DNA of 36,530 bases from a virus. The notes under the pieces were generated by a model that had not been told where the DNA came from, did no database searches, and was given only the letters and a program-made list of their open reading frames with translations. This document shows positions 17,823 to 36,222 of this stretch, one piece after another (the stretch's first letter is position 1; each line of letters opens with the position of its first letter). The stretch covers positions 1-36,530 of the IMG/VR virus record IMGVR_UViG_3300006921_000055. One strand, 5' to 3'. Both the position numbers and the translations under genes were made by a program.

Positions 17823-19253
17823 CTACTCTTGGAATAAGAAGAAGTTGTTTGCACCTAAAGTACATACAGCTCTCTCAGACAAGAAGTTAACTTCCATTGC
17901 ATCCAAGTCAGAAGTAGCTGCACCACCTGCTGAACCTGTAATCCAAGTCTTGTAACGTCTGTCTTCAGTTTGTGAAGCTCTGTAACGTACGTGTAAGAAA
18001 GGACGCTTAGCGTTCTTACCTAAGATTTGGTCATATACTGAAGTTGAACCTGCAGGAACTAACATCCCGTTAATTCGACCTGAGCCTACACCTGTTGGTA
18101 AACCACCGCGCATAGTTGGGTCATTCAAGTATTTCCAATCAGACTTGTAAAAGTCATAACCTCTTCGGAATCCTGTGAATCCTAAGTTTAATGCCATCTC
18201 TTGGTCGTTGTCAAATAAACCATATGAAGTACCACCTGCTCCGTAAGAGTTTTGTGCTGCTAACATATCATCAATATCGAATCCAAACTGACGGTCAACG
18301 AACATTACGTTCTCCTCAATTGCACCTTGCTTATCAAGACGTTGGATGATTGCGTCAAAGTCACCTAATACATTAGGGTTACCTCCTGACCATACATTTC
18401 CACGTTGGCTTACAGAGTAGAATACACCTTCAGAACCACCTTGTCCATCCGTACCACCTGTATTACCAAACTCTTTTGCTGCACCTGAAGCATTTGCTGC
18501 AGGAACTGCTTCTAACATAGCTGTCTCTAAGTAGTCGTCAAAACGTAAACGAGTTTCGTGCTCTGATTTCAAGTACCAAAGATATCCGTTCGCTCCATTC
18601 TCAGTAGTTACTTCAACCCATCCAATCTGAGCCATATCAGAACCTGATACTGCGTACTTATCTTTTAAGATAATTGGCTTATTCTCAAAGAATACGTCAT
18701 CAGCTTCTAAAGAACCTACCATTCCTGCTGTTCCTTTCTTGAACTCAGAACCGTAGATAAACATTGTATACTTATCAGTAGCAACAGGTAGGTGGTTTGC
18801 TCCATAGTAAGCAAGAGTAACCGCTCCCGTTGCCGTATTTACAGTAGTCACTACAGCTTTAAGGTTTTTACCTCCTGTGTTTCTAGTTAACATAACTGTT
18901 TGACCTACACGTACAGCAACGCTTCCGCCGCCCGGCACTAAAGTATCGTTAATAGTCCAAACCGCACTTCCTGCTGCTGCACCTGCCGCACAAGTAACAT
19001 CAACATACTTAGTGTGTAAACGCCCTTGTTCCGCCCATTTGATAAGGTCAGAGTTAGAAGGCATCTCTGCTCCTACTAAACGTAAAAAAGATGCTACGGT
19101 ACGATTCCCGTAACGCTCAAATTCCTTCTCATAAGTATCAGGTAGATACTGATTTAAGAAATTAAAATCTGTAATATAGTTGCTACTTAAAGCAACCTGC
19201 TCCGAACTTGGCTGTAAATCAAAGCCCGGTGTTCCTTGTACTGAACCTGCCAT
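17823..19253 (-). CDS. Major capsid protein
   Basis: 476 residues. It lies directly after the acidic scaffold gene and before a strong terminator, the standard position of the major capsid gene, and has the Gly/Ala-rich, evenly mixed composition of HK97-fold capsid proteins. Residues ~20-70 form an N-terminal helical arm (FNFLNQYLPDTYEKEFERYG). A strand-rich insertion occupies about 75-165 (TVMLTRNTGGKNLKAVVTTV). The middle contains the long-helix region near DDYLETAMLEAVPAANAS, and the C-terminal part has FLHVRYRASQTEDRRYKTW. The start codon is preceded by an A-rich leader instead of a Shine-Dalgarno site. No N-terminal protease or delta domain is apparent. Confidence 0.85.
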   Translation of the reverse strand: MAGSVQGTPGFDLQPSSEQVALSSNYITDFNFLNQYLPDTYEKEFERYGNRTVASFLRLVGAEMPSNSDLIKWAEQGRLHTKYVDVTCAAGAAAGSAVWTINDTLVPGGGSVAVRVGQTVMLTRNTGGKNLKAVVTTVNTATGAVTLAYYGANHLPVATDKYTMFIYGSEFKKGTAGMVGSLEADDVFFENKPIILKDKYAVSGSDMAQIGWVEVTTENGANGYLWYLKSEHETRLRFDDYLETAMLEAVPAANASGAAKEFGNTGGTDGQGGSEGVFYSVSQRGNVWSGGNPNVLGDFDAIIQRLDKQGAIEENVMFVDRQFGFDIDDMLAAQNSYGAGGTSYGLFDNDQEMALNLGFTGFRRGYDFYKSDWKYLNDPTMRGGLPTGVGSGRINGMLVPAGSTSVYDQILGKNAKRPFLHVRYRASQTEDRRYKTWITGSAGGAATSDLDAMEVNFLSERAVCTLGANNFFLFQE

Positions 19254-32744: not shown

Positions 32745-32760
32745 GCAAATTATTTTGTGC

Positions 32761-32768
32761 TACTTTTG
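32761..32768 (+). promoter_or_regulatory. Possible -7 element TACTTTTG (plus strand)
   Basis: Fits TAnnTTTG, 28 bases before the ATG at 32797, facing away from the minus-strand element at 32737. No clear -33 partner is seen. If used, it makes a TTG start at 32755 impossible. Confidence 0.4.
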
Positions 32769-32796
32769 TTCCTACAAATCTACAAAATTTAATCGA

Positions 32797-33231
32797 ATGA
32801 ATAATGACTACTTAAAGTATTGGCGTGTAATAAGATACTTCATAAAAGCCAAGTACAATCTATCGCAAGGTGACCTAGATGTAATACTCTTCTTAAACTC
32901 AGAAGGTTACTTTGGTAAAGCAAAGTTTGATGAGTTTGATGAACTGCTAAGTTGGGATAAGGGTAGGTTTAAAAGATTGCTACGTGATGGGTGGATACAG
33001 GTCTTTAGAAAAAGATGTGGCCCAACAAAAACAGTATACGTCCTCTCATACAAAAGTAAAAGAGTATGCACGTCAATCTACAATAAGTTAAGCGGTGAAG
33101 AGATACCTACTAGTTTATCAGGCAACCCTATGTTTGCTAAGAATGTAAAATATACCGATAAGGTATATAGGAATTTTATTAAAGAGATGAACGCTGCTAC
33201 ACGACAACAACAACATCGTGCTCCTGAATAA
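32797..33231 (+). CDS. Winged-helix-like (MarR-type) DNA-binding protein
   Basis: 144 residues from ATG at 32797 (MNNDYLKYWRVIRYF); a TTG start at 32755 would lie before the candidate promoter element. It is the only convincing plus-strand gene. The order helix (YFIKAKYNLSQGDLDVILFL), short helix (FDELLSWDKGRFKRLLRDGW) and basic wing (FRKRCGPTKTVYVLSYKSKR) matches winged helix-turn-helix regulators. It could control the divergent operon or the convergent chaperone genes. Its last 35 bases overlap the end of groES on the other strand, so transcripts of the two could interfere. Confidence 0.65.
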   Translation: MNNDYLKYWRVIRYFIKAKYNLSQGDLDVILFLNSEGYFGKAKFDEFDELLSWDKGRFKRLLRDGWIQVFRKRCGPTKTVYVLSYKSKRVCTSIYNKLSGEEIPTSLSGNPMFAKNVKYTDKVYRNFIKEMNAATRQQQHRAPE

Positions 33232-33454
33232 TCGTAAACTGTTCGCTCTCAATAAACATAGAGTAACCGGCTCTGCTATCGTAGTATATCGTGTCACCCT
33301 TGTTGATTACATTCACATCTGTACCTGATTCAGCTACATTAGCTTTCTTGTAACGTATACCATCAACATCATCACCCGATAATAAAAGACCCGACTTAGT
33401 CTTTACCTCTTCCTTGATTTCTTTGATTGCTATATATTTTCCTATTGGCTTCAT
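33197..33454 (-). CDS. groES: GroES co-chaperonin
   Basis: 85 residues (E. coli GroES 97). The start KPIGKYIAIKEIKEE matches the first strand. Residues 14-33 form the mobile loop with the hydrophobic triplet LLL (23-25, SGLLLSG), which in GroES (IVL) binds GroEL. The rest follows the barrel: ANVAESGTDVNVINKGDTIY (38-57) and the final strand FTIIQEHDVVVV. The dome loop is shortened. It caps GroEL during folding; groEL lies 0.9 kb upstream on the same strand. Its ATG directly adjoins the phoH stop (TAGATG). Confidence 0.85.
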   Translation of the reverse strand: MKPIGKYIAIKEIKEEVKTKSGLLLSGDDVDGIRYKKANVAESGTDVNVINKGDTIYYDSRAGYSMFIESEQFTIIQEHDVVVVV

Positions 33455-34111
33455 CTAATATCCTGTTAAAAGTTTTAGTACATCGTTTATTGCTTGGTGT
33501 CTATGGTTGTCCTCTAGGATTACCTTGAACACGTGCTTGCTATCCTTAATCTTATGAACATCATCAATAGCTGAGTTTAGAGACGACCCTAAGTCAATCT
33601 GCTGATTGTCTCCGCAGAATATCATTATTGAGTTTCGACCGAGCCTACCTAAAGCCATCCTTAATTGTGGCTTGGTTAGATTCTGAAACTCATCTACTAT
33701 AACAACAGCGTTGTCAAATGTTCTACCCCTGAAGTGTGCAAGAGACACAAGCTCAATCTCCTCCTGCTCTACCATCTTCGCTATCTTCTCAGGCTTATTA
33801 TAAACCTTACGCATATTCGACATAATAGGTACAAGCCAAGGCTCTAGCTTCTCCTTCTCATCACCGGGTAAGAACCCGTTATCCTCAGTGGCTACTGTAG
33901 GGCGTGTGATTATTATCTTATCATACTGCCTTTTGAAAAATAAATCTAAGGCCACCTGTACGGCTAAGAGAGTCTTACCTGAGCCTGCTTTCCCTACAAT
34001 AAAACTGTAGGCGTGATTCATTATGTTCTCCTTTGCTTTCTTTTGCTCGTCCGATAAGGTTATGTTAAACTTTACATTCCCTCGTGGTGGCTTCTTATCT
34101 TTATTGCCCAT
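33455..34111 (-). CDS. phoH: PhoH-family ATPase
   Basis: 218 residues. Walker A GKAGSGKT (40-47), ITRPTVATEDNGFLPGD (68-84) and Walker B VVIVDE (136-141, followed by FQNLTKPQL) with CGDNQQIDLG (166-175) are the hallmarks of the PhoH family, which resembles the ATPase part of superfamily 1 helicases. PhoH is common in marine phages and may act in RNA handling; the exact role is unsettled. It is encoded between the small Cys gene and groES, apparently in the groEL transcription unit. Confidence 0.9.
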   Translation of the reverse strand: MGNKDKKPPRGNVKFNITLSDEQKKAKENIMNHAYSFIVGKAGSGKTLLAVQVALDLFFKRQYDKIIITRPTVATEDNGFLPGDEKEKLEPWLVPIMSNMRKVYNKPEKIAKMVEQEEIELVSLAHFRGRTFDNAVVIVDEFQNLTKPQLRMALGRLGRNSIMIFCGDNQQIDLGSSLNSAIDDVHKIKDSKHVFKVILEDNHRHQAINDVLKLLTGY

Positions 34112-34128
34112 CTAGATTTTTTACACGA

Positions 34129-34290
34129 TTACTTAGGACAGTTGCAGTTGCTACAATTTTGTGCTTTATCTTTAGATACCTTTGAACAACGCTTAATGGT
34201 AGGCCTTTCTTGATTGACGCTCGCAAAGCTTTTGATATTATTCCACGCATCTTTTATAGTTTTAATTACTACCGATAAACTACTTGTCAT
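34129..34290 (-). CDS. Small protein with C-terminal Cys cluster
   Basis: 53 residues, ATG at 34288-34290. An N-terminal helix (SLSVVIKTIKDAWNNIKSF, about 4-22), a basic middle (ERPTIKRCSKVSKDK) and a Cys-rich end (C36, then CSNCNCPK) that could bind a metal. It overlaps the preceding tiny gene by 11 bases and ends 17 bases before phoH. No family recognised with certainty; similar helix plus zinc-ribbon-like small proteins are common in phages. Confidence 0.5.
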   Translation of the reverse strand: MTSSLSVVIKTIKDAWNNIKSFASVNQERPTIKRCSKVSKDKAQNCSNCNCPK

Positions 34291-34366
34291 CTTTGTCTAC
34301 AAATACATTAGTATAAATAATATACAATGAAATCGCTGCTAATATAATTATAATGTTTGATACCAT
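34280..34366 (-). CDS. Possible 28-residue membrane peptide
   Basis: 28 residues: MVSNIIIILAAISLYIIYTN followed by VFVDKDDK, one hydrophobic span with a charged tail. It starts 3 bases after the groEL stop and overlaps the next gene. Too short to be sure; the position in the gap and coupling overlap favour a real leader-type peptide or small membrane protein. Confidence 0.35.
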   Translation of the reverse strand: MVSNIIIILAAISLYIIYTNVFVDKDDK

Positions 34367-34369
34367 AAC

Positions 34370-35971
34370 TTATTTTGTCTCATAACTTCGTGCCATCGTA
34401 ACAATAGCGTTAGTACTTAATAGAGTGACAGCTACTGACACAGCATTTTGCAGTGCGTTCTTTGTAACCTTCATAGGGTCAATAACACCCATCTTATACA
34501 TATCTCCCCACTCACCATTCTTTACGTTCATTCCGTAGTTAGAGTCATCATACATAAGTCTCTCCTTCACTTCATCAGACAACTCTAAACCTGCATTAGA
34601 AAATATCTGTAACAAAGGAGCACGAAGTGCTTTCGCTAAAATCTTTCCCGCAACCCCATAGTTGTCATCCTCTATGTACGTAGCTTGTTTATAAAGAGCT
34701 ACACCTCCACCCGGAAGTATACCCTCGTGAGTAGCTGAACGTACAGCACACACTGCATCATCAACCCTGTCATATAATTCTTTATGCTCTAGTTCAGTCT
34801 GACCACCAACGTATATCACTCCAACACCGCCGGTTAGAGACGCTATCCTTGATTGTATAAATTCCTTCTCATCCTTTGTCTTAGATAAAAGCTGTGCTGA
34901 GTATAACTGCTCAACCCTATCATCTATATCCTGCTGAGAAACAACAGACTCATCCTTCACGATGATTGTAGAGTCTCTATCAATTATAACCTTCTTAGCT
35001 TTACCTAAATCACTTGGCATAATTAAACTTAAATCATCACCCGTCTTCTCACTATAGTAAGTAGCGCCAACAGATAATGCAATATCATTCATTAACTCGT
35101 GCTGCTTGTAACCAAAGTTCGGCGGCTGAACACAACAAACCTTAAGCCCGTTCTTCATAACATTAGCCGACAACGTGTTAATTACATTAGTTGAACAAGG
35201 CGCAATGATTAATAACTTACTCCCTTCCTGTATAATTGGTTTTAATACATTCTCAATCTGTAGTATGTTATTTATCTCAGCGTCACTAACCAATATATTC
35301 ACATCCTCAAAGATGCACTCATCCTTCTTATGGTTGTTTACAAATAAGTTAGATGAATATCCTCTATCTACCTTAACACCCTTTGTGGTCTCAAAATACG
35401 TATCAGGGGTTTGTGAGCGTTCAACTGTAACGATACCATCCTTACCTACTTCTTTATAGACATTGGCTATTACACCGCCTATAAATGAGTCGTTATTAGC
35501 TGATATAGTTGCTACACTAGTCAACGTCTTATTAGTTACAGGCTTGCTCATCTTCTTGAGGTTTTTAATAACATCCTCAGTAGCATTTACAAGTTGCCTG
35601 AAAACCTCCGTCTTATTATCAGATGCCTTAATCATACTATCTCCATTTCGAACCAAGGCGTTAGACAACACAATAGCTGTTGTAGTTCCATCACCCGCAG
35701 ACACAGCAGTCTTCTCCGCAGCCTCCTTTACTATTCTGACTGCAAGATTCTCCACAGGGTCAAGCAAGCTAATAGACTTAGCCACTGTGACTCCATCCTT
35801 AGTAACGGTCATTCCCGATAAATGTTCTTGTGATTCGATAAGCACTGTGTGTCCTTGAGGCCCAAGAGTGCTCTGTACTGCATTAGTGATTTTCTCTAGA
35901 CCATTAAACAACTTTGTTCTGCCTTCTTCTGAGAAATGTAACTCCTTAGGAGTGTAACCTGATTGATTCAT
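34370..35971 (-). CDS. groEL: Chaperonin GroEL, phage-encoded
   Basis: 533 residues (E. coli GroEL 548). The ATP site is intact: TLGPQGHTV (35-43), TKDGVTVA (57-64), GDGTTT (93-98) and D405 (RVDDAV), the residue that activates hydrolysis, followed by EGILPGGGVAL. The apical domain is present (about 190-375), with CVQPPNFGYKQHELMNDIA (280-298) in the place of the AVKAPGFGDRR region. It has diverged clearly from host-type GroEL and lacks the C-terminal GGM repeats, ending MARSYETK. With GroES it probably folds phage proteins such as the capsid protein or replaces the host chaperonin. A strong Bacteroidota-type promoter lies directly upstream. Confidence 0.93.
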   Translation of the reverse strand: MNQSGYTPKELHFSEEGRTKLFNGLEKITNAVQSTLGPQGHTVLIESQEHLSGMTVTKDGVTVAKSISLLDPVENLAVRIVKEAAEKTAVSAGDGTTTAIVLSNALVRNGDSMIKASDNKTEVFRQLVNATEDVIKNLKKMSKPVTNKTLTSVATISANNDSFIGGVIANVYKEVGKDGIVTVERSQTPDTYFETTKGVKVDRGYSSNLFVNNHKKDECIFEDVNILVSDAEINNILQIENVLKPIIQEGSKLLIIAPCSTNVINTLSANVMKNGLKVCCVQPPNFGYKQHELMNDIALSVGATYYSEKTGDDLSLIMPSDLGKAKKVIIDRDSTIIVKDESVVSQQDIDDRVEQLYSAQLLSKTKDEKEFIQSRIASLTGGVGVIYVGGQTELEHKELYDRVDDAVCAVRSATHEGILPGGGVALYKQATYIEDDNYGVAGKILAKALRAPLLQIFSNAGLELSDEVKERLMYDDSNYGMNVKNGEWGDMYKMGVIDPMKVTKNALQNAVSVAVTLLSTNAIVTMARSYETK

Positions 35972-35994
35972 TTTGTATTTGATTTAATTTACTG

Positions 35995-36025
35995 CAAATA
36001 TAAAACATATTTTTTAATACGCAAA
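35995..36025 (-). promoter_or_regulatory. Full Bacteroidota-type promoter for groEL
   Basis: On the minus strand TTTG (36022-36025) is followed after exactly 19 bases by TATATTTG (35995-36002), close to the known -33/-7 consensus. The ATG at 35971 is 23 bases further on. This is the best promoter in the window. Confidence 0.75.
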
Positions 36026-36194
36026 TGTTACTTTTAGTCCGCCCTACTATATATATATATATTCCCCTTTATTATTATTTTTTTATTTCTATAAATTAGG
36101 GTTAAAATTAACATTATTAACAGTAGTACTGATAATCAAATAGTTAACTAAAAATAATTGACATTAAATCAACATCACTTTAACATATAATGTC
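36026..36194. other. AT-rich non-coding gap before groEL
   Basis: Together with flanking signals this forms a 300-base gap (35972-36274) without a gene. It holds a TA-repeat tract (about 36049-36061), A/T homopolymer runs and no reading frame with coding character. It could be a spacer, a binding region for regulators or a replication-related sequence; no iterons or further hairpins are seen. Confidence 0.5.
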
Positions 36195-36222
36195 AAAAAA
36201 AAGAGGGAACTTAATCCCTCTT
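36195..36222 (-). terminator. Intrinsic terminator after the small rightmost gene
   Basis: AAGAGGGA (36201-36208) pairs perfectly with TCCCTCTT (36215-36222) around a six-base loop. On the minus strand a T run follows (plus-strand A run 36195-36200). It separates the 63-aa gene from the groEL promoter. Confidence 0.8.

Follow-up and report, generated by a model that had tools for sequence, protein, structure and literature searches.

Our analysis of a 36,530-nucleotide virus sequence (IMG/VR record IMGVR_UViG_3300006921_000055; the whole stretch is hereafter called the window) points to a dedicated phage folding machine, which is probably a single GroEL heptamer with a roofless GroES, both expressed from one promoter. 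In a broader form of the proposal, for which we see the chances as evenly balanced, evolution has given the marine Bacteroidota phages of a widespread clade a naturally single-ring GroEL served by a roofless GroES of their own, and so an enlarged cage. What would be new relative to the known phage pair, as far as sequences can tell, is an abandoned ring–ring face together with a roofless cognate lid. The features concerned are as follows.

34370–35971, minus strand: groEL, Group I chaperonin, 533 aa (PF00118, E = 9e-58 over 28–526; PHROG groEL, E = 6.5e-137)
33455–34111, minus strand: phoH, PhoH-like ATPase, 218 aa (PF02562, E = 1.4e-53)
33197–33454, minus strand: groES/Cpn10, 85 aa (PF00166, 37.2 bits; cut-off 21.1)
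32755–33231, plus strand: convergent gene, phrog_17028, function unassigned, with a 35-nt overlap at the groES 3' end
35995–36025, minus strand: Bacteroidota-type promoter motif TTTG-N19-TATATTTG, 23 nt before the groEL ATG
about 36193–36222, minus strand: 8-bp hairpin and T run, AAGAGGGA-6 nt-TCCCTCTT TTTTTT, read in the sequence
34472–34711, minus strand: putatively recombined groEL segment, about aa 420–499, equatorial, holding the right-hand inter-ring site

The chaperonin locus and its distribution

The profile matches bear out the initial annotation of a full-length GroEL, and groEL, phoH and groES do share one orientation, with the groES ATG directly abutting the phoH stop codon. The hairpin with its T run terminates the gene upstream of groEL and thereby parts the groEL operon from it. 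In 70 of 79 lineage loci the 80 nt preceding groEL contain a -7 box (TAnnTTTG), as against 6.4% of background windows, and in nearly all of these loci the box lies 18–34 nt from the groEL start. Promoters of the TTTG-N19-TATATTTG type number two in the whole window where 1.3 are expected; the count is thus near chance, but given the frequencies across the lineage the placement before groEL is not. The three genes probably form one operon behind a terminator and a Bacteroidota-type promoter, so that the single promoter supposed earlier is plausible. In most loci the leader between the -7 box and the groEL start (35972–36002) contains AAATCAAATCAAAT, a conserved repeat-like sequence and possible translation signal.

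A scan of IMG/VR with the window GroEL gave 80 loci at 56–84% identity. GroES follows groEL in all 77 of those with enough downstream sequence, and also in the podovirus ctfjg026 and in one MAG contig; the convergent phrog_17028 gene comes next after groES in 77 of 77 loci, in ctfjg026 and in the MAG contig. The lineage GroES is 85–87 aa long in almost all loci, and its tail-to-tail overlap with the convergent gene (33197–33231 in the window) is a conserved arrangement, being exactly 35 nt in 57 of the 80 loci and 32–41 nt in 75. A Pfam search of the convergent gene gave no match. Contig L086 (WLWP01000006.1, 61,607 bases), from a MAG labelled Pseudomonadales, carries the lineage set of groEL, groES and convergent gene and is probably a misbinned phage.

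That PhoH belongs to the core of the chaperonin module is ruled out, since 68 of the 80 loci carry both chaperonin genes without phoH and four state changes on the tree suffice to account for its distribution. It lies between groEL and groES in just 12 loci, all in one subclade, and the commonest lineage arrangement is a 4-nt groEL/groES overlap; phoH is therefore best read as a later insertion in that subclade.

The pair had been called uncommon in a podovirus-like genome. It is in fact universal in the lineage, and both genes are also found in elemoviruses, in Cellulophaga phage phi38:1 and in the unrelated Flavobacterium phage immuto. GroEL has been reported from 36 genomes of marine phages that cluster with phi38:1, the 'group 2' marine phages (PMC5332604), and some phages are described as encoding both chaperonin subunits (PMC7185714). 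The phage groEL–groES pair itself is therefore already known, and its rarity is ruled out by the 77 long-enough loci and the cultured elemoviruses. The putative label podovirus-like draws on how relatives are named (ctfjg026, Podoviridae sp.; elemoviruses, vB_FspP).

The window TerL is related to those of Flavobacterium elemoviruses (46%), Cellulophaga phages phi19:3 and phi38:1, and Tenacibaculum phage Gundel_1. TerL matches with a recorded host are phages of Flavobacteriia only, and the host of the window phage may be flavobacterium-like. TerL and portal homology and a shared gene order make the window phage elemovirus-like. Elemoviruses (for example vB_FspP_elemoE_10-3D) resemble the window lineage in having adjacent groEL and groES in that order, followed by the same convergent gene; they differ in that no PhoH lies between the two, their GroEL is just 38% identical to that of the window, and several of its ATP-loop residues are changed (P33Y, G88S, T91C). 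Cellulophaga phi38:1 and Calle_1 (Callevirus) likewise encode both subunits and have a related TerL (36%), but cpn10 precedes groEL with one gene between them, and their GroEL belongs to a different branch. At the other end of the window, positions 1–2283 hold an open-ended frame of 761 aa matching phrog_32588; the ctfjg026 gene at that place is 11.6 kb long, and the gene possibly encodes a giant virion-associated protein.

Origin of the phage groEL

The initial annotation proposed that the phage uses its own chaperonin, and named a GroEL placed among host flavobacterial sequences as the result that would speak against this. No sequence among 43 dereplicated bacterial GroELs exceeds 41% identity to the window GroEL. 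In a maximum-likelihood tree the lineage GroELs form one clade (100% SH-aLRT, stem 0.75) outside all Bacteroidota and Pseudomonadota sequences sampled; elemovirus, crAss-like and other long-branched phage GroELs, whose placement is unsure, were left out of the inferences. A search of genomes for close bacterial relatives turned up just two MAG contigs, both with phage-type genes, and host GroEL sequences were therefore taken from phylum draws. One genome so drawn as a Bacteroidota relative (G067) holds two GroELs of phage type along with GroES of that type, at loci L134 and L139, which are probably phage contigs in that bin.

Recent capture of groEL from the host is ruled out by the tree, and a recent origin by capture or contamination from a host flavobacterium is hardly credible, given also the gene neighbourhood common to 80 phage loci. 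Among solved structures, the nearest in sequence is the reconstructed GroEL of the FCB-group ancestor; this is what capture has in its favour, and because of it the ultimate source of the gene may be Bacteroidota. The genes of the locus are under purifying selection, with dN/dS of 0.13–0.15 for GroEL and about 0.05–0.06 for PhoH and GroES (GroES near 0.055). A conserved pair under such selection and not of recent host origin is in keeping with a chaperonin of the phage's own.

The window groEL is itself a mosaic, the only one among 81 sequences. Between nucleotides ~1261 and 1500 it is 60–88% identical to L020/L024-type phages and 23–68% to L002/L003, whereas the rest of the gene is nearest L002/L003, mostly at 80–97%. 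We consider recombination within the clade likelier than a chimera produced in assembly, for which we see a minor but real chance. The uniqueness of the pattern, the metagenomic source of the record and the position of the break points in conserved stretches are what a chimera would lead one to expect; against it, the reading frame, indels and conserved residues are all intact within the segment, and the adjoining DNA is otherwise L003-like. Moreover, the nearest donor-type segment found is only ~75% identical in protein, a distance that rules out the mere splicing-in of a sampled genome. The mosaic segment includes the right-hand ring-contact site of the window GroEL.

The GroEL ring and the GroES lid

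The ATP site of the window GroEL is conserved. Residues D52, D87, T89–91, D398, G414–416 and D495 are all identical to those of Escherichia coli, and these positions are invariant across the 80 relatives except for G415 (66 of 80). The D405 singled out earlier is the equivalent of the catalytic D398. The sole changes among the ATP-site residues checked are V483 and K484 in place of E. coli A480 and A481, sites also changed in the other members of the phage clade; apart from these, the motifs are intact as first described. An AF2 model (pLDDT 84) has the three-domain fold and matches GroEL structures in Foldseek (E 7e-48 to 2e-44). The Gly-Met-rich C-terminal tail is typical of Group I chaperonins but not universal among them, and the window GroEL, which ends in ...TMARSYETK, does lack it. 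It thus has the Cpn60 profile, the fold, the ATP site and a GroES encoded alongside that mark a Group I chaperonin, and has neither the Gly-Met tail nor the inter-ring contacts.

In GroEL, the salt bridges K105–D435 and R452–E461 stabilize the ring–ring contact, and they are missing in the single-ring mtHsp60 (PMC5575113). Both are kept in all 43 bacterial GroELs but in only 1 of 53 from the lineage; the window GroEL has S, N, L and E at K105, D435, R452 and E461 respectively, and does not keep the contact set of the two bridges with A109, S463 and V464. Ten inter-ring positions defined in the literature have a median rate percentile of 97 in the lineage as against 51 in bacteria (p = 2.8e-7). 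The strands 37–49 and 516–522, which we take to be those that hold neighbouring subunits together within one ring, evolve more slowly than average in the lineage (p = 0.0016), and so do the ATP-site positions. When rates were averaged over 11 residues, the most accelerated stretch was centred on residue 110 and the third on 466, that is, on both ring-contact sites, and among 256 bacterially conserved positions R452 ranks 1st in variability within the lineage, A109 8th, E461 10th and K105 25th. On this evidence, the surface joining the two GroEL rings appears lost across the whole phage group.

Missing contacts are no proof of a single ring. Two other phage chaperonins, OBP and AR9, in which sequence comparison finds the same two bridges absent, are reported to be single rings by electron microscopy (PMC5934643, PMC9598537), whereas the chaperonin of phage EL, although it does not have the GroEL-type interface, still assembles as a double ring through other (1:1) contacts when no ATP is present (PMC7185714). 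The window GroEL might likewise stack on lineage-specific contacts rebuilt from other residues, with the phage GroES as its lid, and the helices of the ring–ring face are still predicted in its model. We think such a double ring unlikely, though it deserves to be kept in mind: segment 416–496 averages 39% identity in the lineage as against 68% elsewhere, the accelerated stretches centre on this very face, and a conserved alternative interface is not expected where the face varies so strongly within the lineage.

These comparisons make one heptameric ring, closed by a roofless lid of its own, likelier than the GroEL14–GroES7 complex first envisaged. Absent ring contacts had been set down as evidence against that complex; they do tell against the double ring, and leave a working single ring untouched. 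Counting against the single ring is the position of the right-hand contact site of the window GroEL within the recombinant segment.

The 85-aa GroES with its mobile-loop triplet was correctly described: it matches the Cpn10 profile and has the loop SG-LLL-SG, the LLL triplet recurring in 58 of 80 lineage GroES. The mobile loop is 1–2 residues longer than in bacteria. The roof segment has 7 residues in all 80, as it also does in the 83-aa elemovirus GroES, compared with 16 in Pseudomonadota and 10–16 in Bacteroidota; some Bacteroidota roofs are already short at 10–11 residues, so the shortening is partly ancestral. The AF2 model (pLDDT 92) is a confident barrel with a roof segment devoid of strands, and its structure matches include T4 gp31 (1g31). 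The protein therefore has the profile, the beta-barrel and the mobile loop with hydrophobic triplet of a GroES, and no roof beta-hairpin. In T4 gp31, the missing roof loops and the greater length of the mobile loop are linked to a larger chamber for the T4 capsid protein (PMC6318259).

The apical groove that binds GroES and substrate has, in the lineage GroELs, switched to new residues that are conserved there (E. coli numbering): L234E in 94%, V264A in 100%, V263A in 87% and Y203L in 91%, with S at 263 in the window GroEL.

A proposed single-ring folding cage

We propose that, in an infected flavobacterium-like host, one Bacteroidota-type promoter would drive a Group I GroEL and its own GroES lid, and that the GroEL would keep ATP cycling and the heptameric ring while giving up the contacts that stack two rings. 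The working form would be a single ring capped by the roofless phage GroES, and probably roomier. The SR1 mutant of E. coli GroEL traps its substrate because GroES stays bound, and a weaker GroES contact restores function (PMC5575113); by analogy, a similar weakening could come from the altered groove residues and the LLL triplet. The altered groove (L234E, V263A/S, V264A, Y203L) and the LLL loop would then tune lid affinity such that the lid leaves without needing a cue from a second ring, and might also prevent the phage proteins from assembling with host GroEL. The clients are likely to be phage virion proteins, candidates being the capsid protein and the 1,558-aa protein suggested earlier, and a roofless lid like that of gp31 would fit a bulky one. 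The search for a major capsid protein gave a 476-aa protein (17823–19253) that matches a 'virion structural' PHROG only, and no solved structure. The genes, their conservation, the residue changes, the promoter motif and the phylogeny are observed, and the single ring, the tuned lid, the clients and the host are the parts of this scheme that we infer; the pair and the convergent gene, conserved in every long-enough locus, count in its favour.

The phage GroES might instead mainly cap host GroEL, leaving the phage GroEL as a lidless holdase. T4, whose gp31 is such a lid (PMC6318259), is the precedent, and the EL, OBP and AR9 chaperonins work without a co-chaperonin (PMC9598537). In the lineage, however, groES always lies close to groEL, and groove residues that are changed yet conserved suggest a private GroES partner. 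We hold this division of labour to be quite improbable.

The single-ring cage with its cognate lid would share features with several known systems. Like the lineage GroES, T4 gp31 is without roof loops and has the longer mobile loop, but it works on host GroEL. EL, OBP and AR9 are, like the window GroEL, phage-encoded with an altered ring–ring face; they are about 22–25% identical to it and need no co-chaperonin, whereas the window phage has a cognate GroES. The cage proposed for the whole clade, to which we gave even odds, would be a minimal viral one, unlike the chaperonins of giant phages, which have no lid. Mitochondrial Hsp60/Hsp10 and SR1 have lost the inter-ring salt bridges and kept a GroES-type lid (PMC5575113), but neither is viral, SR1 is engineered, and the bacterial GroES used with it keeps its roof.

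Single-ring cycling of a Group I chaperonin with a GroES lid is a long-standing question, studied mostly on engineered SR1 and mitochondrial Hsp60. The clade supplies many natural sequences in which the ATP site and intra-ring strands are conserved, the ring–ring face is seemingly abandoned and a cognate lid is present, and cultured relatives exist in the elemoviruses on Flavobacterium sp. BAL314. If the proposal is true, a compact folding cage of larger volume would explain why these phages keep both genes.

Among unrelated phages, the inter-ring salt bridges are partly lost in the GroELs of immuto, Vibrio phage K471 and phiTY18 (L151, L153 and L159) and kept in that of Bacteroides phage SJC03, which suggests that these bridges have been lost repeatedly in phages.
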